Shown: positions 1,291-62,297 of the stretch, one piece after another
Layout of the letters: each line of letters begins with the position of its first letter
Numbering within the stretch: the stretch's first letter is position 1
Origin: Haliclystus octoradiatus
Lineage: Eukaryota > Cnidaria > Staurozoa > Stauromedusae > Haliclystidae
DNA: 64,000 nt
NCBI GenBank assembly: GCA_916610825.1
Contig: OU744453.1
Span: forward strand, 8,407,845 to 8,471,844
Direction of reading: 5' to 3'
The notes under the pieces: generated by a model
What the model was told of the DNA's origin: nothing
What the model saw: only the letters and a program-made list of their open reading frames with translations
Database searches by the model: none
Made by a program: the position numbers and the translations under genes

Positions 1291-4200
1291 CTAAGAAAAA
1301 TAAAATTAAAAATTAGTTTTTAATCACATTACTCAGACAGGTTGGATCTACTGTTGTTGGGTGAAAGCCAGAATCTGAAAAAGATCTATATCATATCAGC
1401 CACAGTTAGCAGTCTGTTTTCAAGAAGCAACTGATTTGTGAGCCTGGTAAATCTCTACTCTTCAAAAAGACTATGATTGAAAAAAGACATTATTTTCTAT
1501 TTAAATACTATCCTATGACTCTTAACGACCGTAATGGGACGACCAGTAATATCCAAAATTCCCAAATATCATTTCAATCACCCCATTCAGGTCGTTAAGA
1601 GTCATAGGATAGTATTAAACAGAGAATGATTTTAAATATATCCTAGGCTCAATGATTTTACCGAACCTATTAAATACAACCTCATCATTTCCACGTTTTG
1701 GGCATACTTAATTGATTAATTTATTTAAGGAAACCTAAAAGATTCTATAGGCCTATCCAGGGACTAGCAACCTACTAGTCGCCCCATTAAGGTTGTTAAG
1801 CGTCATATGATAGTATTTAAATAGAAAATGATGTTTATGAGAGAGCCAAACATATCAACATAAAACTCAATGTGGTGATTATATTTAACGAAAATAATTA
1901 ATTGGTAATTTTACTTTATTGTTGTGAGAAACAGCTGTGCTTGTTGTGGCCTGACGTCTAAATCAAGTCTTAAGGTTACCAGAATTAAATTTAGATAAGG
2001 AATAACAATGCTACGGAATATTTCATAAAAACGTGATTAAGACTGAATCACTCTACTGAAGGAGCCCGTACCATTTCTCTTTTTCTCCCGCTTTTTCTAC
2101 TAAGAATAATGATTGTAAATGCTCTTTTATGATCGATTTTATGATTTTAGCCGCGACACTGCAGATCAATTTTAAACAAATTTCTTGGAAGATTGGTTTT
2201 GATTGTCACAATGACTCTTGACTATTCTATCCGCCATCAGAAGATGGTACCCATTTGCTGACCTAGTTTACTGAATTGGCTGAGTTGATTTACTCTGCCA
2301 TCTCAACTAATCCTCTCTTTAACATTTCATAAAAATTTTAAAAAGACTTACGTTGGTTGGTAGATTTCTTTGATGCGTTCTCTGCTACGTAATGATTCAT
2401 CACGTGCTTCTATTTGCTTTTCGATGTCCTATTGATTTAATGAATACCAAATTGTGTGATGATAAACTGTAATGTTCAATCTACTATGAACACTCAATTT
2501 TATAGAATTTATATTATGAAATAATATATGACATGAAATTTTATGCTTTGAATTATATTATAAATTACCAAGATCATGAACGCTTGAATTTTGCTAATGT
2601 GAAATTGTGAATATACAAAAATATTGGTTTTCAGCAAAAATTAAAATAGTTACAACAGTGTAACTTGGTTAATTTCCCCTTTTTAATTTCCTATCTTGGT
2701 TGAAGTCGACTATCCCTCTATACAACTGATTTCTATTTTACATTCTCTATATGAACTCATAGTCCTATCTGGCTAGATGTCTCACTTTTCATCCAGACTT
2801 ATCTTTCACATTAAAATGATGCTTGAAATTATTTTTCTGAAATTAGATGTCATATATTAAATATATGATCTAGACTAAGAGATGATTAGTAGACTGAACA
2901 TTCAAAATGTTCACGGCACGGTCCATTTTCTCTTTTTTTGATCAACTCTAAGAACAAGCTATCCAAAATTTGAAATCTGTCCGACATTGGAAATGGACTC
3001 CCAAGGACCCTATATATTAATACGTAAAGCTAGTGGGGAAAACGCTAATATTTTTCAAACGGAATAAGTTATCTTTGTGAATATTTTCAATTGATTATTT
3101 AAAATGTTTGAATCTTAATAATTCCAAGAAAAATAAACGATTTTAAAACAATGCATTGAAAAAAGGGAGTTTCTGTGTGAAAATTGCTATTTAGACAAAT
3201 GTGTCGTTTCAATGATCTGTCAACATACAAAAGTATTATCAGAGACGTTTTAGGCGATTTTGCGATTGTACCTTTTCGAAAGTTGTAAACTGAAGATCAA
3301 TTTTCTTTTGAACAGTGGCTGATTCAAATGCATTTATTTTAATCCTGTGCGTTATTTAATTTATTTTGGCACCGTCATATTGTGATGTTGTAAGTTTTAA
3401 ACAAATTACTTACAATTCCTACTAAATAGAGCAACTAGTTTCCCGCTTTATTGAATTGATTGACAGAATATATCACTATCATAGTAGGATGATATATATA
3501 TTTGTTTACCTTGAGAGCACCATTTCCTAAGACTAAAGTGTTGCATGTGATTTTAAAATAACTTCTCAATCACTGAGTATTTTCAAACCTAATTTTTTGA
3601 TATCATGACAACTGCTTCTGTATCCTTATCAAAAATGGGGCATATTACTCAACATTTTAAATTGAAACTTATAATCAAAAACTGATCAGGATGCATACAA
3701 TGGTCCAATCGTCCATCGCCATATTTTGAAGTTGGTATCTCACAGAACTACAGATGCTGAAAAAGATGCGCATTCATCACACAAAACTGAGATATCAAAA
3801 AAATAGCTCTGCTACGCTCAGACTCACTCATAGTGAATGATAATCAATAGAAATCTAATGAAATCAAATTCAAAGAATATCAAATCAAAGCAAACCAAAT
3901 CAAATCATCAAAGAAAAATCAAATCTTATGAAATTCAATAAAGTAAAATCAATCCAATCGAATGATATAAAATCAGATGAAATAAAAAAAATGAAATTCA
4001 ATAAAATATTATAAAATAAAAAATCAAATCAAATCAAATAAATTAAAACAAAACAAAACAAAAGAAAAGAAAATTAATCAAACAAATATAATAATTATTG
4101 TATAAATTAGATTAATAAAATAAAATAAAAAATATGAGATAGATATTAAGAATAGAATCACTTATATACATAATACTGTCTGTTTATATATCACTATATT

Positions 4201-26081: not shown

Positions 26082-35313
<9,232 letters not shown>

Positions 35314-44611: not shown

Positions 44612-47600
44612 GTAAGAAGATAATCAGCAGGATATTTTAACTAAATTGATATTTGATAAAGACTACTGTGTAAAATGCAAGAAGGCTACATCTTCTCTTC
44701 TCACATTCTGTCGCACCGAATTATAACATTTTTGTTGCTGAATTGTATAGTTTTTTTTATTTATACTTCAGGTGATTTCCTTGCAAAACTGCTTACGTTT
44801 ATATTAACATTTTAACACAAATGTCGGAAATGTATACTGTATCTGTACACGTGTACATACATCTGTTTATTGTTGTTGTTTCATACGAAGGCCACAACTC
44901 AACCTAACACCAATTACTTGTTGTGTTCCACAATGAAGTATTCTTGGACCATTGGTATTTCTAATATTTATTAATGACTTTCCTTAATCAACCTCTTTTC
45001 TGTACAAGTTTATTCGCTGACGATACAACTCTCCAGCTCTCTAGCCAAAACCTTTTAGTTCTTGAAGTTAATAACATCAGAAGCTAGGAAGCTAAGGAAC
45101 TATATCGAATTTTTACCGATGGTTTCAAGATAACCAACTGACCATCCACCCGGAAAAATGTAAATATATGATATTTTCTCACACCAAAACTTGAAACAAC
45201 TCAACATTCAAATCGAAGGACAATCCCTGGAGCAATGTCGCAAAAGCTAGTACTCAAAACATATTAAATTTCTTGGTCTTCTATTGATGAAATTGGAAAT
45301 ATCACATTAATTTGTTTGCATGAAAGAAGGAAGCATATATATATACTTTAATAAAATTAAAAAAGTTCTCATATCCACTAACTGCAAGCCCAAAATATAT
45401 ACTGTGCAATATTTCATATCTATATTGGGGACATGTCACTAGCATGTTTAAGTTTGTAACATACCATTGTACCCCCAATAACAAGCATTAGACAATTAGA
45501 GCCATCTATTCACAAGAGTTGGAACACTCTTTCTTGTGCCACTCTCGGCTCCCATTGGACAAATGCCAGTCTCGTGATCTTATAGACGGCATTTTCGTTC
45601 CATCAAACCAAGCTTGCGAAACTGGATCAAAGCGCGGGGAAATAATATCATGAATTCGAAAAATTTTCTGTTCAAAAGCAAAACTTGACTTGCTCAAGTC
45701 TCACTTCTGTGTTATGCCGATCTTGATGGATTGGCAAGTGAATTTAATTTGGTATCTACTTCATACCTTAGTTGAAATATAACTATCTATCTGTTTATTA
45801 GTATTTTGAAGCATCTTAATTTAAGTATGTACAGTTGACTTAAGTTGCTATAACCTCCTTTAATCTTCTACCCTGTTTGTTATCTAATATGCTAAAAAAC
45901 ACATGTCACTTTCATAAAATCTCAATTGGCGAACCAACTGTTGGATTACAGTCAAACCTGTTACTGGCCACCTGCAGCGTCTTAAGGTTCTATTGAATCA
46001 ACCTTGTATGTAAATTCTACCTTCATACAATGGTATATGTATCTATACCTCTCCTAGCTAGCTGGTTGTTATATACAGGTTTGAATGTATCTTATTACTT
46101 TTAGGCACATCATCATGAAATCATCCCAGGTGAGTCAAGAAAGACTCAGACTATTGAAAGGATTCTCATCTTGCGATACAAGTTGTTCACAAATAGGACT
46201 TTACTGTAAGCTATAATCTTCAATGCATAGTTCTTCTAAAGCTAAAAAAAAACTGAGTGATAGTTGCTTGTAATCAGTCAGAAGTCATAACAAAACATGC
46301 ATATCAAATTGAAACAGTTAACAAGTTGAAAAAATTCTCTATAAGCGTAATATAGTTCTCAAAGTGTTTGAAGGGAATGATATTGATTTCAGATCTATAT
46401 TTACACACCTTTCTTGGTTGCTGAATTGGTCACACAAGCACTAATATTATTACTTATATAATATATATAATCAAATAAATATCCAGTTATTTTACGTTGC
46501 TAAGTTTTTCTCCTCCGCTTCAATTGGATGAAACAAATAATTTATATATGCATATAGTTGATGGTAATTGGTCAACATGGAGTTTAATTGGGAGTTGTAC
46601 TGTCAGCTGTGGAGGTGGCCAACAGCAGAAAAAACGGGTATGCGACAACCCAGCTCCAGAAAATGGTGGAGCTGCATGCGATGGATCAGATACAATGACG
46701 ATACCATGTAATACGAATGGATGTCCAGGTTAGTGTTTTTTGTTGTTGTTTGTTGAATCGTGTTGCATGACACAATGACGATTACTACATGAAGGAAGAA
46801 TATATTTCCTGAGAAACATCCGTGAAATATTGTTCCATCTGGTTCATGGTCTATTTTTCATTTCATTAAGATAAATAATTTGCAGTTGAAAGTTCATAAA
46901 AGAATATACAAGAATAGAAAAAAAATGATGTTAGATCAAAACAAGAAAAATATACCATGGATCATATTAAGGATTAATTAAAACATTTTTGCAATGATCA
47001 CCTTTTCCGTTGTCCAATAGCTGAATGCAAAGTAAGATGAAGGTTTACAGCTAGCACATCCACTGAAAGCCACTAAACGCGGGGTGAAGTCAGAAAATTA
47101 TGGTCGTTAAGACGACGTGTACCGGACACAATAAGTCGTATTTCCGACGACGCTCCGTTTAGTTCCCGACTACGTTTCAACGTAACAAAAGGCTACGAGA
47201 CTCCATTTCGAAAAATTTCATAAAAAGGCTGCTGTCCTGGTTTGAACTGAGAACAAAAACGCACTATACAAAGGAAATGTCTGTCTGAAACACAGGCTAA
47301 AACAACTCGATCGTGATATTCACAAGCATAAATATTGTAATTTGTGTGCTGTTTATGCTATAGATCTGACAATTGCTGCATATCTGCCACATAAAATTTG
47401 CACAAAAATTTTTAGGGCTACTTGAAATGTAAGCCCGGGAATGAAATACATGATTTATTCAACCAAACTATTTGTAATATGTATATATAATTGATACATG
47501 TATTTCATTAGCGATAATTGCACCATCAATGGAGTTCAAACTTGAAGAAACACAAAACACATTAAAGTTCATAATTAAAATATTGTGTTATGTTTAAAAC

Positions 47601-50600
47601 TTGATGAAAATACAGCAGGCCTACAATCAGCTTAAGTGCAAGTCAAAATCCGAATTTGCACTTTCTGTAAAATCCTTCAACATGGACTTGACAAACTGGC
47701 CTATGAACTCGTTTTAATATTTGTTAATAATTTATATAGTAATTGATAACACGCATACAATTCCTTGTTTTTATCAATTAGTTCATGGAGGGTGGTCTCC
47801 GTGGGAAACGACTACACCTTGCTCTGCATCATGTGGAACTGGGACGAATACCAAAGCCCGCTCCTGCACAAATCCATCTCCAGAAAATGGGGGAGACCAA
47901 TGTATTGGATTAACAACAGATCAACAAACTTGCATCGATGCAGACTGCAATACTTTTCATATTACGCCAAGCTTAGGTATTGTTGATCAATAAAACAATG
48001 TAGCACTCAAAGTTTTACCTTATCTATATAAGCCTCTTTTGAGTTGCTTGTCGATTTTATATTTCTCACTGTTAATACAGTCCCTAGGGAAATAACACAG
48101 GATGATTCTTTTGAATTTACTTTGTTTATCCCATTTCAGAACAATGAAACTTTTAAACTCCGAATAGGCTTATTGTATATATATTATGCGTTATAGTTTT
48201 ATTATAAAACATCAATAAAGCTCTGCATACGAACATTGCAATGGGAAAAAGGAACCCAACCCGTCGAAAACAGTCAAATTATTTTGAATGATTACTTCCA
48301 AAGGAGAATGTTCTTCAATTTTAAAGTATATAGATGAGGTCGGTCTGATACATGTTTCGTCCCTGCCAACGGACTCATCAGAGACCCTTCTGATGTCTTA
48401 GCTCCTCAGGCATCGCGCCTGAAGTCTCACTAACGAATAGTATAAATGGTGAAAACTTCCGTGCATATCACATGCACAGTCCCGATTGAATAACAACATC
48501 ATTGATCAATCAATTGATAATGCTGGTCTGACGCGTATGTGTGTTTCGTCCTAATCAAAAGTGTTTTTGCCAGGGATTGAACCCAAGACACTGCGGACTG
48601 AGGTCCAGCGCCCTTACTTCTTCACTCAAGGGTTTATTAAATAATTATCGCACAATTATCAGGTCTTTATTCATATTTACTGAACGACAAGAAGTTGAAA
48701 GACGCGGATAGAGCGCTAAAAAATCACGAGCCTCTGAAGCTCGCAATTTTAAGTCTCCCAAGTGTCTCCAAACGTTTTCTCGTTTAGTCATTCAACTTGT
48801 AGACCAGGTGAAAATTTCGAAACAAAGACATTATATACATTTAATACTGTCTAAGACAAATAATGAAACACCGGCTGGTGGTTTATCTTCAAGCCCTCCC
48901 CAGTCCCCAAAATAATTCAACTTGTACTCGAGTCTGAACATCCCTATTTTTTCATTTTCAAAAAATTTAAGTTATGTATTTTCCAACAGATCCAACCTTT
49001 TGATAGCCTGAGTCACAGACGCAATTCATTCACGATAGAATATGATCTCCGTACATAATACACTATTTTATTCTGTCCAGTCAAGTGCGTGGGTGGTAAA
49101 TAATTTACCCTGCTCATGCAAGGCTTTCTCACAATCCGCATTGTCCAAGGAGACTATATAGCTACAACTGAAACAACACAAAATAACAAAGCGAAATGTC
49201 CAGCATTTATTCCTATCAATAGACCCCTGGATAGAAAATCGCAAGGTAAAGGCAAAGTTTTTGAAAGATATAGCAATTTTTCCTTCCTTTGAAAACCTTT
49301 GTGGCATCTTAAAAAGTTCTTTAATCAAGGAACATATTTTCCAGACATAAAACGCTGATAGTCGATGTATGCGCTGACAGAAAAACTTGCAGAACAATGA
49401 ACATAGCAACATACGATTATCATTTACAATCACTGCTCTTATCGAAAAGAGCCACTTCTTTAGAAATAGAAGATGGTACGGGTGTCGTCGGTAGTGTAAT
49501 ACCGTCTCAGTTATCTTTTTGTTGTGATGGAGTCTGTTTTACTTCCTTATCATCATACGATTTCAATTACTTAATATGGCCTATAAATTACACGTGAATC
49601 AATTAGCGGCAGTTCCGTAGAGCTGAATGGCCACCATAAGACTGTATGAAAATTATATTGCTACTTCTAGCAAATGTGTCAATCTCTGTGATGGAGAAGC
49701 CAATACATTAAATACAATGATAAATAAATGTTGCGTATCACGAATTCACCTCTGCATAAATCCAAGACAAATCTGCCTTCAGTTCATTGATTTTAGTTTC
49801 AAGGATTCACAAAAAAAAAAATGATCAGGTTTAGGCCTGGATTATACAGCGCGCTTTCGAGCGTGCCGTGCTTTCGTTTACAGTAAATTGAAAGTTGGCT
49901 CGCTGTCGGCGCGCCCGTCTAACTTGACACGGCTCGCTGTCATTAGCACGGCGCGCTCCAAATCGAAAGCTCGCATAGGAAGAGCGTGCTTTCACTTCAA
50001 GGCGAACTTTCATTTCGACATTCCAGGGATTCCTCTCACCATATTTGGTAAAAACCGGGGGTTGATGTCGAGAAAGAAATGTCTAGCCTCTTTTTCTCGG
50101 CCGTTGCCTAGATACAGTTCCGTTTTGCAAATAAACAGATGAATAAACATTGATTTTCTTTCGAATTATAATCGAAATCCACAAAATAATAATAGGGAAA
50201 CTACTCAGAGCATCTGTACTTCTCATTTGAAGAGGAGAAAACTTTCAAATAGTATTAATTAGACAATGTTATATATATATGCTCTGCAGATTAGATATAA
50301 GCCACTGTCTTGTATTTGTAGGACCATGGTAGGTTAAAAAACTATCATTGTATGATAATCACACATTTGATGGCGAATTGTGATAAAAATCATTTTTTGA
50401 AGCAATAAATTTATTTCACGAAAAGCGTATACTTGTCAATCAAAAGTCTTGTGAGATATTTTCTTACACGTCATCATGTAATTCACAGGAAGTTTTGACA
50501 CAACTTTTGAGGACGGCTCGCTGTATAACTAGACATTTTCAAAAGCGCGCGCCTTCAAATGAAAGCGCGCTCGAAAGCACGGCACGCTCAAAAGCGCGCT

Positions 50601-58066: not shown

Positions 58067-58160
58067 AAGTGGCACCCGTGATGGGAGAAGAATTTGAGAC
58101 TACATTCAGAATTATACAACACACAATTATTGGAGATTAAACTATTCATATATAGTTACA

Positions 58161-61100
58161 ATGGGGGAAGAAATGCTGGAGAGCCAACTCAAGAAGTTAC
58201 AAAACAGAATACAATTACTTAACTTAACAGTGGAAGATGCAGATGGAATTATTGCGAGCAATAATGTTCGAGAACTAGAAAATTACAAGAGAGATTTACT
58301 CAAACAATTAGGGGAAATCAACAAAACGGAAACATCAATCCAAGAACTGAAAATAGAAGACGGCGAAGAACCTCTATCAGTGAGACAATGGAAGAAAGAT
58401 TTACAATTACAATTGAAGCTAAGCAACACAACTATGGAGACCTTAGAGAAACATATTAAAGATATCAACAATACAGTATCAGAAGAAGATTCTATCAGAG
58501 AATTAGAAATATTACGCAAAAAACACGAAGAAGAACTTAAACTTGAAGAGAGAAAACTACAATTACAAATGTTTAAACAAAGAGAAGCAGAAAGTGAGCA
58601 AACTATTAAGAGAGATCAAAACTCTCAAAACATAGTAAGTGCTAAACTACCAAAGCTGGTTATAACAAAGTTCAATGGGACACATATCGACTGGAACAGA
58701 TTCTGGAACCAATTTGAGTCTGAAATAGAAAATAGCAGCAATTTAGCACAAGTTACAAAGTTTTCATATTTGAAAGAGCTGGTTGAAGGAAAAATACGCC
58801 CTGTTATTGATGGGCTACCTTTCACAAATGAAGGTTATGAGAGAGCTAAAGCTATATTAAAGTCAAAATATGGTAGACCTAGTGAAGTAACAAATGCACA
58901 TATTCAAAGCATATTATCATTATCTACAATATATGGAACAAATACTTACAAAATTAATGAGTTCTATCAAAAACTAGTTACAAATGTACAAGCGTTAGAA
59001 ACCATGGGAAAGTTAACAGAAATCAACGGTTACGTAAGAATGACATTGGACAAATTACCTGGTATACGATCAGATTTAGTACGAACAGATAACAATTGGC
59101 AAGAATGGAAGTTCAACCATCTAACCGAAGCACTTTGGCAATGGACTGAGAGAAATCCTGTTTCTGAAGATCGTCAAAATACAGACAGATATAAACATAA
59201 AAAGGACAAAATATTTAATACAAGACAATCATCATGGAGAAGCTGTGTATACTGTAAAGACGAAGAGCAAGACCATAAATCATCAGAATGTACAAAAGTT
59301 AAAGATATTAGTGAAAGAAAACAACTATTGATGAAAGAGAAACGATGTTTCAACTGCACAAAAATGGATCACAGAGCAGCTGATTGCAAGAGTAAATGGA
59401 AATGTTCTAACTGCTCTAGAAGACATCACACGTCAATATGCGAAGGCAACCACACTGCAACAAAACCACAAAAGGAACAAACACTGACAACTGCTGAATC
59501 AAAAGATGTAACATACCCTGTAGTAATAGTAAGAGCCAACGGTATCAAATGTAGAGCATTATTGGACACCGGAGCTGGAAGCTCATACGCTTCTTCGACT
59601 CTCATTAGCAGACTAAAAATGCAGCCTATACGTAAAGAAATGAAAACAATAGAAATGATGATGGAAAAAACGACAAGGAAAATATCAATGTACAACATTA
59701 CAATTACAGATTTGGATGAAACATGCGTTATTCAAGCAGAGGTAAATAAAGTTGATAAAAGAGAGTTATTATCACTACCGAATCCTAACTATGACAAAAT
59801 GATTGCAAGATATACTCACCTAAAAGATGTGTCAATGAACGAACAAGAAAACGATAAGATGTTATCTATTCACCTAGTTCTTGGTGCAAGTGAATACGCC
59901 AGAGTAAAGACAACATCACAACCACGAATTGGTCGACCAGGAGAGCCAGTGGCGGAAAGAACAAAGCTAGGTTGGACCATCCTGTCGCCTGGAGAAGAAG
60001 CAACATTGGGAAGTACATATCTTACAAAAGATTCAACATATGACTTCGAGAGACTGTGCTCGTTGGATGTACTGGGCGTGGCCGATACAAACAAAACAGA
60101 TGATGAAGAAATTCTTGAAACATTTAAGGATAAACTAACTAAAAGTAAAGAAGGATGGTATGAAACAAGCCTTATTTGGAAGCCTAACCACCCAGAGTTA
60201 GCAAGCAACAAAGCAGGAAGCATAGGGAGATTAAATAATTTAATGAGAAGATTAAATCGGCAACCAGGATTGTTACAGAAATATGATGACATTATTCAAG
60301 AACAACTACAAGAGGGAATAGTAGAAAGAGTTCCTGACGCCATAAAGAACAATGAGTTTTACATACCTCACAAACCAGTTATCAGAGAAAACGTGGAGAC
60401 TACAAAATTAAGAATTGTGTATGATGCATCTGCAAAAGAAAACACTAATCGACCATCGTTAAACGATTGCCTTGAAACTGGTCCACCACTTCAAAACAAG
60501 CTATGGGATGTATTGATCAGAAATCGTTTTAGACCAATAGCACTCACCGGAGACATTAAAAAGGCATTTCTACAAGTTCGGATTAAAGAAGAGGATCGAG
60601 ATTCGCTGAGATTTCATTGGATTAAAGATAAAGATCCAACAAAGATTGAAACATTACGTTTCACAAGAGCCTTATTTGGTTTAGTACAATCACCCTTTAT
60701 GTTGGCAGCAACAATAGATACTCATCTGGACACAATGAAGAAAGAATATCCTGAAGAAACAGAAGAGATAAGAAAGTGTTTATACGTAGATGATTTGATC
60801 ACTGGCTGCAACACAATAGAGGAAACACAGAGATTTAAAGACAAAGCTTGCAGCATCTTCAAAGATGGAGGTTTTCAACTACATAAATGGCATTCAACCA
60901 ACAACTGCATTGAAGGAAAACAAGAAACACAAATATCCCCGTTAGAAGAAGAAAGGACATTTGCAAAAGAACAGCTTGGATCTCTTGAAAACGACTCGAA
61001 GATACTGGGCATTTATTGGAATAAGCAAGATGACCATCTCAGCGTAATTGTACCACAACCACCTTCAAGGACGACCAAGAGAGGGATTCTACAGTACTTG

Positions 61101-62297
61101 GCAACAATATTTGATCCACTTGGGTTTGCATCGCCTACAACATTGGTTGGAAAAAATATATTCAGGACATGCTGTGAAAATAAATTCAATTGGGATGAAG
61201 AATTCGACAAAGACATCACATCACGCTGGAAAACATTCTTGGACAGACAACCGGAGACATTCGAAGTACCTAGATCGATACCTTCGTACAAGGAAGACAT
61301 AGAATGGATAGATCTACATGCCTTCAGCGATGCAAGTGAAAAGGGTATCTGCGCAGTCGTCTACGCTGTCACAGCACAAAAGTCTGGTATCAGTAAAGGT
61401 TTACTTGTTGCAAAATCAAGATTATCACAAAAGGCAGCAACTATTCCACGTCTGGAATTAAATGCAGCGACAATGGCAGCAAATATACTTTGGAATGTTC
61501 ACGAAGCCATTAAAGACTTTCCAATACGGAACGTGTACGCCTGGACGGATAGCACTGTTACACTACATTGGATCCGAGGTTCTGGAAATTACAAACAATA
61601 CGTAAACAATCGCGTGAAAAAGATCAAAGAGAAGCCATTCATACAATGGAGACATGTTCCTGGTAAAGAAAACCCAGCTGACATAGGAAGCCGAGGGGCA
61701 GAAGCAAAACAGCTCACAGATCTTTGGTGGAACGGTCCAATTTGGTTAGAAGATGCCGACAATTGGCCTAAAGACATATTAACACAAGATACGACTGAAA
61801 GTGCAGCAGAAGCAAAAGCCATAAAAGAAATCTTGTCAACAACAATTACAAGTCAAGACGACGACATTCAAAAACTACTAGACAAACATGGTATATGGAA
61901 AGCCTCCAGAATTATAGCATGGATCATGAGGCTCAAACACAACGGTAATACATCTAATGAAAACAATTACAGAGGATACCTACAAACGCAAGAGATTACA
62001 TCAGCTACAAACAAAATAATAAAAAAGATTCAAGAAAATTTCATCAAAGAAGACGCATTTGAATCATTCAAACACAAATTAAACCTTCAGCAAAATGAAG
62101 AAAATATCTATGTATGCAAAGGAAGACTACAAGGAGACTATCCTGTATTTATCCCTCCAAAAACAATCCTTGGAAAGCAGATAGTCATACAGGCACACAC
62201 AAAAACGCTACATGGGGGAGTTGGCTTGACCATGGCACAAGTCAGAAGCAAATATTGGATACCAAATTTACGACGTTTGTCAAAAAACCATCATTAG
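58161..62297 (+). CDS. BEL/Pao Gag-Pol polyprotein, truncated in integrase
   Basis: 1378 codons from an ATG 95 bp after the LTR. Order: coiled-coil-rich Gag start (residues about 1-150, many Glu/Lys/Leu); zinc-finger cluster at about 362-425 with CFNCTKMDHRAADC; aspartic protease with LLDTGAGSSYAS near 467 and the DUF1758-type region typical of Pao; RT with KLRIVYDASAKE near 750, FLQVRIKEEDRDSLRFHW near 802 and catalytic YVDD near 874; RNase H with HAFSDAS near 1052 and WTDSTVTLHWI near 1127; integrase N-terminus with HTKTLHGG near 1345. The frame ends at TAG (62295-62297), just after an A6 run (62282-62287). Expressed from the LTR promoter; proteins act in a cytoplasmic particle. Confidence 0.93.
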   Translation: MGEEMLESQLKKLQNRIQLLNLTVEDADGIIASNNVRELENYKRDLLKQLGEINKTETSIQELKIEDGEEPLSVRQWKKDLQLQLKLSNTTMETLEKHIKDINNTVSEEDSIRELEILRKKHEEELKLEERKLQLQMFKQREAESEQTIKRDQNSQNIVSAKLPKLVITKFNGTHIDWNRFWNQFESEIENSSNLAQVTKFSYLKELVEGKIRPVIDGLPFTNEGYERAKAILKSKYGRPSEVTNAHIQSILSLSTIYGTNTYKINEFYQKLVTNVQALETMGKLTEINGYVRMTLDKLPGIRSDLVRTDNNWQEWKFNHLTEALWQWTERNPVSEDRQNTDRYKHKKDKIFNTRQSSWRSCVYCKDEEQDHKSSECTKVKDISERKQLLMKEKRCFNCTKMDHRAADCKSKWKCSNCSRRHHTSICEGNHTATKPQKEQTLTTAESKDVTYPVVIVRANGIKCRALLDTGAGSSYASSTLISRLKMQPIRKEMKTIEMMMEKTTRKISMYNITITDLDETCVIQAEVNKVDKRELLSLPNPNYDKMIARYTHLKDVSMNEQENDKMLSIHLVLGASEYARVKTTSQPRIGRPGEPVAERTKLGWTILSPGEEATLGSTYLTKDSTYDFERLCSLDVLGVADTNKTDDEEILETFKDKLTKSKEGWYETSLIWKPNHPELASNKAGSIGRLNNLMRRLNRQPGLLQKYDDIIQEQLQEGIVERVPDAIKNNEFYIPHKPVIRENVETTKLRIVYDASAKENTNRPSLNDCLETGPPLQNKLWDVLIRNRFRPIALTGDIKKAFLQVRIKEEDRDSLRFHWIKDKDPTKIETLRFTRALFGLVQSPFMLAATIDTHLDTMKKEYPEETEEIRKCLYVDDLITGCNTIEETQRFKDKACSIFKDGGFQLHKWHSTNNCIEGKQETQISPLEEERTFAKEQLGSLENDSKILGIYWNKQDDHLSVIVPQPPSRTTKRGILQYLATIFDPLGFASPTTLVGKNIFRTCCENKFNWDEEFDKDITSRWKTFLDRQPETFEVPRSIPSYKEDIEWIDLHAFSDASEKGICAVVYAVTAQKSGISKGLLVAKSRLSQKAATIPRLELNAATMAANILWNVHEAIKDFPIRNVYAWTDSTVTLHWIRGSGNYKQYVNNRVKKIKEKPFIQWRHVPGKENPADIGSRGAEAKQLTDLWWNGPIWLEDADNWPKDILTQDTTESAAEAKAIKEILSTTITSQDDDIQKLLDKHGIWKASRIIAWIMRLKHNGNTSNENNYRGYLQTQEITSATNKIIKKIQENFIKEDAFESFKHKLNLQQNEENIYVCKGRLQGDYPVFIPPKTILGKQIVIQAHTKTLHGGVGLTMAQVRSKYWIPNLRRLSKNHH

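Follow-up and report, generated by a model that had tools for sequence, protein, structure and literature searches.

A degenerate retrozyme copy with a type I hammerhead core in Haliclystus octoradiatus, from a family whose insertions end just past the ribozyme cleavage site

A stretch of 64,000 nucleotides from the staurozoan Haliclystus octoradiatus (assembly GCA_916610825.1, contig OU744453.1, positions 8,407,845 to 8,471,844; hereafter the window, with coordinates counted from its first letter) carries a complete type I hammerhead ribozyme core on its minus strand. With a probability of roughly 0.86, the sequence around this core, 48330-48551 (minus), represents an old, 5'-truncated insertion of a metazoan retrozyme of the kind that lacks long terminal repeats (non-LTR), slightly more than one unit in length. 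The family to which it belongs is of a kind already known in animals; the mechanistic lead that it offers is the fixed position of its insertion 3' ends. The core had been proposed from the letters of the window (the original prediction), and each of its elements is found where it was placed:

48342..48386, minus strand: complete type I hammerhead core (sequence, descriptor match, homologous cores)
48386-48382, minus strand: GGTCT, 5' strand of stem I (sequence)
48381-48375, minus strand: CTGATGA (sequence)
48374-48371, minus strand: GTCC, stem II (sequence)
between GTCC and GGAC, minus strand: loop GTTGGCAG (sequence)
48362-48359, minus strand: GGAC, stem II return (sequence)
48358-48355, minus strand: GAAA (sequence)
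48349-48347, minus strand: ATC, cleavage triplet (sequence)
48346-48342, minus strand: AGACC, stem I return (sequence)

Read along the minus strand, the core runs GGTCT-CTGATGA-GTCC-GTTGGCAG-GGAC-GAAA-CATGT-ATC-AGACC, with the predicted cut between 48347 and 48346. CTGANGA, GAAA and NTH follow one another in that order with stem I open-ended, the arrangement of a type I hammerhead. Under a strict descriptor (a 5-bp Watson-Crick stem I, CTGANGA, a 4-bp stem II, GAAA, NTH and the stem I return) the stems count 5 bp (I) and 4 bp (II), and the descriptor matches once in the 64 kb and not at all in 400 dinucleotide shuffles, in agreement with the earlier statement that such an arrangement is very unlikely to arise by chance.

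The core belongs to a dispersed repeat family. Genome searches yield at least 69 matches with the 341 bases around the site as query (best 40 of 723 candidates scored) and at least 61 with an intact tandem relative (best 40 of 637 candidates scored). A 35-place core pattern allowing up to 3 mismatches occurs at 121 + 146 = 267 places, while the reversed pattern occurs at none. Several relatives are head-to-tail repeats whose units abut directly. The spacing of successive intact cleavage sites is exactly 183 nt in 7 of 16 measured intervals and 180-190 nt in 15 of them (range 147-190 nt), and the G+C content of these 16 units is 46.3-50.3% (mean 48.7%). Metazoan non-LTR retrozymes are described, in the available part of Cervera & de la Pena 2020 (PMC7229834), as tandem units of ~150-450 bp, mostly below 50% G+C, with target-site duplications, when present, longer than 4 bp, from corals, sea anemones and jellyfish (Acropora, Morbakka and Nemopilema are among the genera named, with Mytilus and the axolotl). 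The kind is further marked by the absence of an LTR, a primer-binding site, a polypurine tract and coding sequence, and by expression as linear and circular RNA. The Haliclystus intervals lie in that head-to-tail range, with one type I hammerhead each, except that the shortest (147) falls slightly under 150 nt; the highest G+C value lies marginally over 50%.

The copy in the window is a decayed member of this family, with the following parts:

48330..48551, minus strand: degenerate retrozyme copy, 222 bp, ~1.2 units (alignment to the intact 183-nt unit)
48347..48529, minus strand: one full 183-nt unit, cleavage site to cleavage site, 43.7% G+C (alignment)
48530..48551, minus strand: 3' half of the upstream hammerhead, GGACGAAAC...GTC (sequence; most of it aligned to the unit)
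48330..48341, minus strand: 3' terminus GACCTCATCTAT, a homologue of CCTCATCA/A, the terminus of the family at which reverse transcription apparently begins (alignment)

Its 3' end lies at ~48330-48334 and its 5' edge between ~48551 (by eye) and 48529 (local alignment), and as read from the sequence it is 5'-truncated within the upstream ribozyme. Identity to the intact unit is 171 of 200 aligned positions (85.5%), with 17 transitions and 12 transversions among the differences and 5 changes of the CpG type. The copy must be regarded as old, because the median identity of 52 mapped copies to their reference units is 97.2%. No open reading frame listed at 70 or more amino acids overlaps it. The 3' flanks of the mapped copies are 76% A+T, against 67% for the window.

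Conservation among the relatives shows which parts of the window core have changed. The 52 mapped loci, 51 of which have a core, supply 79 cores (43 of them distinct), and at catalytic-core positions the commonest residue is found in 94-100% of the 79. Stems I and II each have 5 bp in the commonest relatives. In stem II, one pair changes at both of its positions (T-A in 66 cores, C-G in 10, C-A in 2, T-G in 1), a count that does not allow for kinship among the C-G copies. The very small stem III proposed earlier is a family trait: helix III has 2 bp, an A-T pair in 74/79 cores and a C-G pair in 74/79, with ACGT closing it. In the window copy even this is incomplete, for CATGTA stands there in place of the CACGTG that most relatives have between GAAA and TC, a difference that disrupts pair 15.2-16.2 (now C.A) of a helix that had only 2 bp to begin with. 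The fifth pair of stem II is G.G in place of the C-G of the relatives, and this change and the C.A of helix III each occur once among the 79 cores. Little or no cleavage activity is to be expected from the window copy, and a weakness had been suspected in it. The suspicion had fallen on the ATC triplet, which is not the main weakness of the copy; ATC obeys the NUH rule of hammerhead cleavage.

Insertion ends carry the most information about how the family spreads. We mapped 52 copies onto the unit, 32 of them from the 60 loci of the two genome searches; the rows dropped were loci that overlap the 32 or that lie in a satellite array on C7 (L020, L034, L048, L049). The other 20 are 19 zero-mismatch pattern places on C1-C6 that the genome searches had not matched, plus C2:8222348, which they had. 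This selection means that copy lengths are not an unbiased sample. In 50 of the 52 copies the 3' end falls at unit phase 11-29, just beyond the cleavage site (alignment ends may run some bases into chance matches); inspected by eye, the typical ends are CCTCATCA/A or CCGCTTTATCA/A. The two exceptions are L093 and L047, the latter having a deletion that breaks the alignment and ending by eye at CCTCATCAG. By contrast with these fixed 3' ends, 5' ends fall at phases 4-176, and the copies measure between 0.26 and 3.65 units. An exact direct repeat of 9 nt or longer stands on both sides of 27 of the 52 copies; among 3000 mismatched flank pairs the proportion is 1.4%. These duplications, ~9-15 bp long, are 83% A+T, and 25 of the 27 contain ATT or AAT; the 21-nt repeat at L094 is a microsatellite. 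L004 and L080 share flanks and target duplication and measure 302 and 119 bp, exactly one 183-nt unit apart. The two represent one duplicated locus in which a unit was gained or lost, so that at most 51 of the insertions are independent. As a separate observation, L012 and L096, which belong to different subfamilies, have a common target duplication, AAATAGGTA, and similar flanks, as from a repeated target or from conversion.

Copies with uniform 3' ends, irregular 5' ends and duplicated target sites point to target-primed reverse transcription. With the 3' ends located beyond a cleavage site that is still intact, the template must have been continuous across that site, either as a circle or as an uncut multimer. 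The 20 copies found through the core pattern test this fairly, because the pattern reaches exactly to the cleavage site, so that a copy stopping there would have been caught; not one of the 20 does. We propose that tandem retrozyme transcripts would self-cleave and then ligate into circles of ~183 nt, as their published relatives do. Using an AT-rich target as primer, a reverse transcriptase provided in trans would start at phase 11-29, just downstream of the cleavage junction, and would run a variable distance round the circle, sometimes for more than one turn, to leave copies of 0.26-3.65 units. Copies longer than one unit agree with repeated passage round a circle. The enzyme would most likely come from Penelope-like elements (PLEs) of the same genome, whose hammerheads lie shortly before their 3' ends.

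Several results weigh against identifying the window copy as a retrozyme or against the steps proposed for its family. The case is built on DNA, and the RNA and cleavage steps are predictions. An uncleaved linear multimer explains the crossing of the junction equally well as a circle, and duplications of ~9-15 bp suit long interspersed elements (LINEs) too. No exact flanking repeat of 9 nt or more is found in 25 of the 52 copies, the window copy included, whose own target-site duplication is unclear, at 4 nt. Folded by itself, the intact unit is of ordinary stability (z -0.20), the optimum fold of the predicted circle is not hammerhead-like, and forcing the hammerhead stems costs, relative to the optimum, ~3 kcal/mol in an intact core and ~6 kcal/mol in the window copy. 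A loose stemless pattern would, if taken alone, speak for chance, with 9 matches in the window against 5.09 expected and 16 of 100 shuffles reaching 9. The covariance-model check that had been suggested for the core comes out negative, with no Rfam match at the gathering threshold either in the window or in the loci scanned besides it, 10 of the retrozyme and 1 of a PLE. A relaxed search over 2 kb gives a sub-threshold Hammerhead_3 match of the wrong topology (22.5 bits against a gathering score of 48.5, E 0.097). The best score among the relatives is hardly different (L003, Hammerhead_3, 23.1 bits), and since Rfam fails on the relatives too, the test does not discriminate. RF00163 has no match in the whole genome, which says nothing about absence because it has none in 14 control genomes either. 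A gathering score is a criterion of detection, not a defining property of a hammerhead.

The pattern of change in this family gives no sign of coding. One sense frame of the intact unit (for example in L003) is free of stops and 183 is divisible by 3, which raised the idea of an endless coding frame round the circle. That idea finds no support: differences in 51 copies (the window copy set aside) fall 126/111/126 by codon position, synonymous changes number 92 against 105.6 ± 7.7 expected and new stops 27 against 19.1 ± 4.2, showing no codon constraint among copies, with the qualification that dead copies would hide constraint. Five of the seven full units labelled B (subfamily B) carry a stop, and the window unit 48347-48529 has 2 in the frame that is open in the intact unit. 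The stop-free frame is probably a chance feature of the sequence.

Comparison with known systems places the family among metazoan retrozymes and also shows where it departs from those described in the available part of PMC7229834. It shares with them one type I hammerhead per unit, unit size, G+C content, target-site duplications and coexistence with PLEs. It differs in that its 183-nt unit is near the lower end of the size range (two published jellyfish retrozymes have 233 and 227 nt), and in that many of its copies are fragments or 1-2 units, not long arrays. The available part of PMC7229834 makes no mention of a 3' end held constant shortly after the cleavage site, as seen in Haliclystus. 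The weak helix III has parallels in the axolotl, its two pairs plus tetraloop resembling HHR_Amex2 and its palindromic loop HHR_Amex1; the likeness is one of description only, the Amex1 and Amex2 units being 330 and 350 bp against 183 nt here. Amphibian hammerheads with a weak helix III act as dimers, according to the same source (PMC7229834, in part). In the Haliclystus family the whole of ACACGTGT at helix III is a palindrome, and through ACACGUGU, a perfect palindrome, two ribozymes could pair with each other. Plant LTR retrozymes are likewise non-autonomous, hammerhead-flanked units made into circles, and differ in having type III hammerheads, an LTR, a primer-binding site, a polypurine tract and circles of 600-800 nt (PMC7229834, in part). 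Among open-licence titles and abstract openings we found no report of staurozoan retrozymes or of retrozymes whose reverse transcription starts at a fixed point beyond the ribozyme, which is weak evidence of novelty. An exact pattern scan of IMG/VR gives 0 matches.

PLEs encode a reverse transcriptase and a GIY-YIG domain, unlike the retrozyme, and they are present in this genome. Sixteen GIY-YIG matches are listed in a genome search. One locus (L077, 1645-4327, on C2) is a tandem PLE with an open frame of 792 amino acids that matches RVT_1 (E 1.9e-10) and GIY-YIG (22.8 bits against a cut-off of 22.6). Both of its pseudo-LTRs (pLTRs) carry a hammerhead-like motif, CTGAAGA-stem-GAAACGTT, and thereby supply the coexistence with hammerhead-bearing PLEs that is one mark of metazoan retrozymes. 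Motif scans of the other 15 GIY-YIG loci return one weak match with a 3-bp stem II, common to L063, L066, L072 and L076, and, near the edge of L072 on the strand opposite its open reading frame, one copy of a second hammerhead-like repeat; no other hammerhead motifs are found by these scans. The second repeat (CYGT-CTGANGA-T-CGC...GCG-GAAAC...GTA-ACAG) occurs at 1,249 places with up to 2 mismatches (control, 0), among them L042 (minus, ~102), L072, L030, L024, L021 and L008, and its stem I has the variants CTGT/ACAG and CCGT/ACGG. In 100 of the 1,249 places (all on C1), head-to-head pairs and spacings of ~2.52 kb recur, a pattern familiar from PLEs; judged by spacing and orientation alone, the second repeat is probably a PLE family.

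The position of PLE ends is of interest here. Nine of the 18 fetched 3' ends of the first PLE, compared by eye, leave the shared sequence at or near CTTGAAA, ~49 nt (32 + 17 nt) past the presumed cut, and the other nine run on in shared sequence that continues the unit. For the second repeat, 25 of 85 matches in a DNA search end at query position 127-128; with the presumed cut at 81, the distance is 46-47 nt. Most of the other matches end at 192-213, and the 46-47 nt therefore describe one class of ends. The retrozyme resembles the PLEs in the position of its insertion ends, since both stop shortly past a hammerhead cut, and the occurrence of PLE and second-repeat ends tens of nucleotides past their hammerheads suggests, by analogy, that PLE machinery may serve the retrozyme. 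Likeness in 3'-end sequence was considered and set aside, with only CTTTATC common to the PLE and subfamily B; it is not used as evidence. A related case is Anolis PAc (PMC11167929), in which reverse transcription starts 111-118 bp into the open reading frame and the ribozyme cut lies 26 bp into it, in which ribozyme mutants still insert, and for which ATT is the preferred cut site. PAc is like the Haliclystus retrozyme in being tandem, in having a hammerhead and an internal 3' end downstream of it, and in using AT-rich targets with ATT; that it inserts with no need of ribozyme cleavage we count as a further likeness. Its start is farther from the cut, at ~85-92 nt by our computation, than the phase 11-29 of the retrozyme (PMC11167929). 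A tentative extension of these parallels, which we consider possible and on the whole doubtful, is that the PLE reverse transcriptase recognises the neighbourhood of the uncut hammerhead, so that the fold would act as a landing mark and cleavage would only make the circles. The common rule under this proposal, for which our expectation is just as reserved, would place insertion 3' ends at a short, fixed interval beyond the cut made by the hammerhead. The distances observed are phase 11-29 for the retrozyme, ~49 nt for half of the PLE ends and 46-47 nt for one class of second-repeat ends; in Anolis PAc, too, the end is on the downstream side.

The reading of the window copy as a retrozyme must be set against other explanations. 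Chance resemblance to a hammerhead in non-coding DNA could draw on the loose pattern count, no higher than shuffles explain, and on the failure to reach Rfam gathering thresholds. It is nevertheless rejected, because the same core, mostly intact, recurs in many dispersed copies; the strict descriptor result against 400 shuffles, the 267 homologous cores, and the conservation of stems and core in the 79 examined leave it with a negligible probability. A very improbable alternative is that the copy is a fragment of a PLE pLTR and not a non-autonomous retrozyme. The genome does hold tandem PLEs with hammerhead-like motifs, and pLTR hammerheads are type I according to the available part of PMC7229834, yet the 183-nt unit repeats head to tail with nothing in between, and a BLAST comparison (E up to 0.01) finds nothing like it in 17 PLE-type loci, reached via the 16 GIY-YIG matches, or in 18 PLE ends. 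The PLE-type hammerheads have arms and loops unlike those of the retrozyme. The original prediction had named the type I hammerheads of animal retrozymes and PLEs together as its likely kin, and the best-supported reading now narrows this to a retrozyme unit rather than a PLE pLTR.

Spread as satellite DNA, chiefly by unequal crossing-over or amplification at the DNA level, does describe part of the family. The array C7:7650317-7652822 (G000; L020, L034, L048, L049) is a long satellite of a 144-nt retrozyme derivative. It lacks the 5' strand of stem I, with GGCGC instead of GGTCT, a loss that should leave its hammerheads dead, and it has spread by DNA-level amplification; the one-unit difference between L004 and L080 is likewise as expected from unequal exchange. 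The mapped copies, however, are short and dispersed, often with different target-site duplications, and fixed 3' ends with variable 5' ends are a signature of reverse transcription. The satellite explanation is valid for local expansion only, and as an account of the window copy it is quite improbable. There is, finally, the idea that the window copy now serves as an intronic ribozyme, recruited to act on a host gene with thrombospondin repeats. The copy keeps its core and stems I and II despite 14.5% divergence, and a TSP_1 exon precedes it in the direction of the gene. Its own orientation, however, is antisense to that of the exons, and the two changes described above, the C.A of helix III and the G.G of stem II, are unique to it among the 79 cores. 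Recruitment of this kind is barely credible.

The neighbourhood of the retrozyme copy in the window includes these features:

46479..46730, plus strand: open reading frame with a thrombospondin type-1 exon (Pfam TSP_1, E 4.2e-10)
47718..47990, plus strand: open reading frame with a second thrombospondin type-1 exon (Pfam TSP_1, E 2.8e-7)
48556..48636, minus strand: fragment like a tRNA-derived short interspersed element (SINE), B-box-like GGTTCAATCCC, in the flank outside the element (search matches)

A donor-like AG/GTATTG stands at 47976/47977 after the second TSP_1 exon (by eye), and the retrozyme, on the minus strand, is antisense to both exons. Its earlier placement inside an intron is plausible, as exons and a donor-like site lie upstream, but a regular-expression scan finds no further TSP_1-like motif in the window and no downstream exon is identified; on sequence grounds the copy likely lies in the following intron if the TSP_1 gene continues. 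The SINE-like flank gives 41 matches including itself (at least 40 further ones, the best non-self at 77 bits). A unit resembling Smalpha, a schistosome combination of tRNA-like SINE and hammerhead, was considered for it and rejected; the tRNA-like stretch upstream is a separate repeat, because the listed non-self retrozyme matches do not reach query positions 1-109. Farther off in the window, 58098-62297 (plus) is an open frame of 1,399 amino acids that we take to be BEL/Pao-like (its first 701 match DUF1759 and, below the cut-off, aspartyl protease families), and 30405-31612 is a near-perfect (TAA)n microsatellite of 1.2 kb (99% matches). At the related locus L003, positions 2644-2730 (plus) form a hairpin, possibly a palindromic repeat, that matches mir-31 at 32.8 bits (E 0.0011), below the gathering score of 51. 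In the mitochondrial DNA of the same animal, cox1 is read through TGA codons and faces frames that by eye resemble cox2 and atp6.

The retrozyme family of Haliclystus octoradiatus thus presents a feature that can be measured: a constant start past the uncut hammerhead, 5' ends that cross unit borders, and AT-rich duplications. Hammerhead-bearing PLEs reside in the same 262-Mb genome, and the question of the partner becomes testable in a small animal genome. If it is true that the PLE enzyme recognises the uncut hammerhead as its landing mark, this would identify the missing autonomous partner of animal retrozymes.

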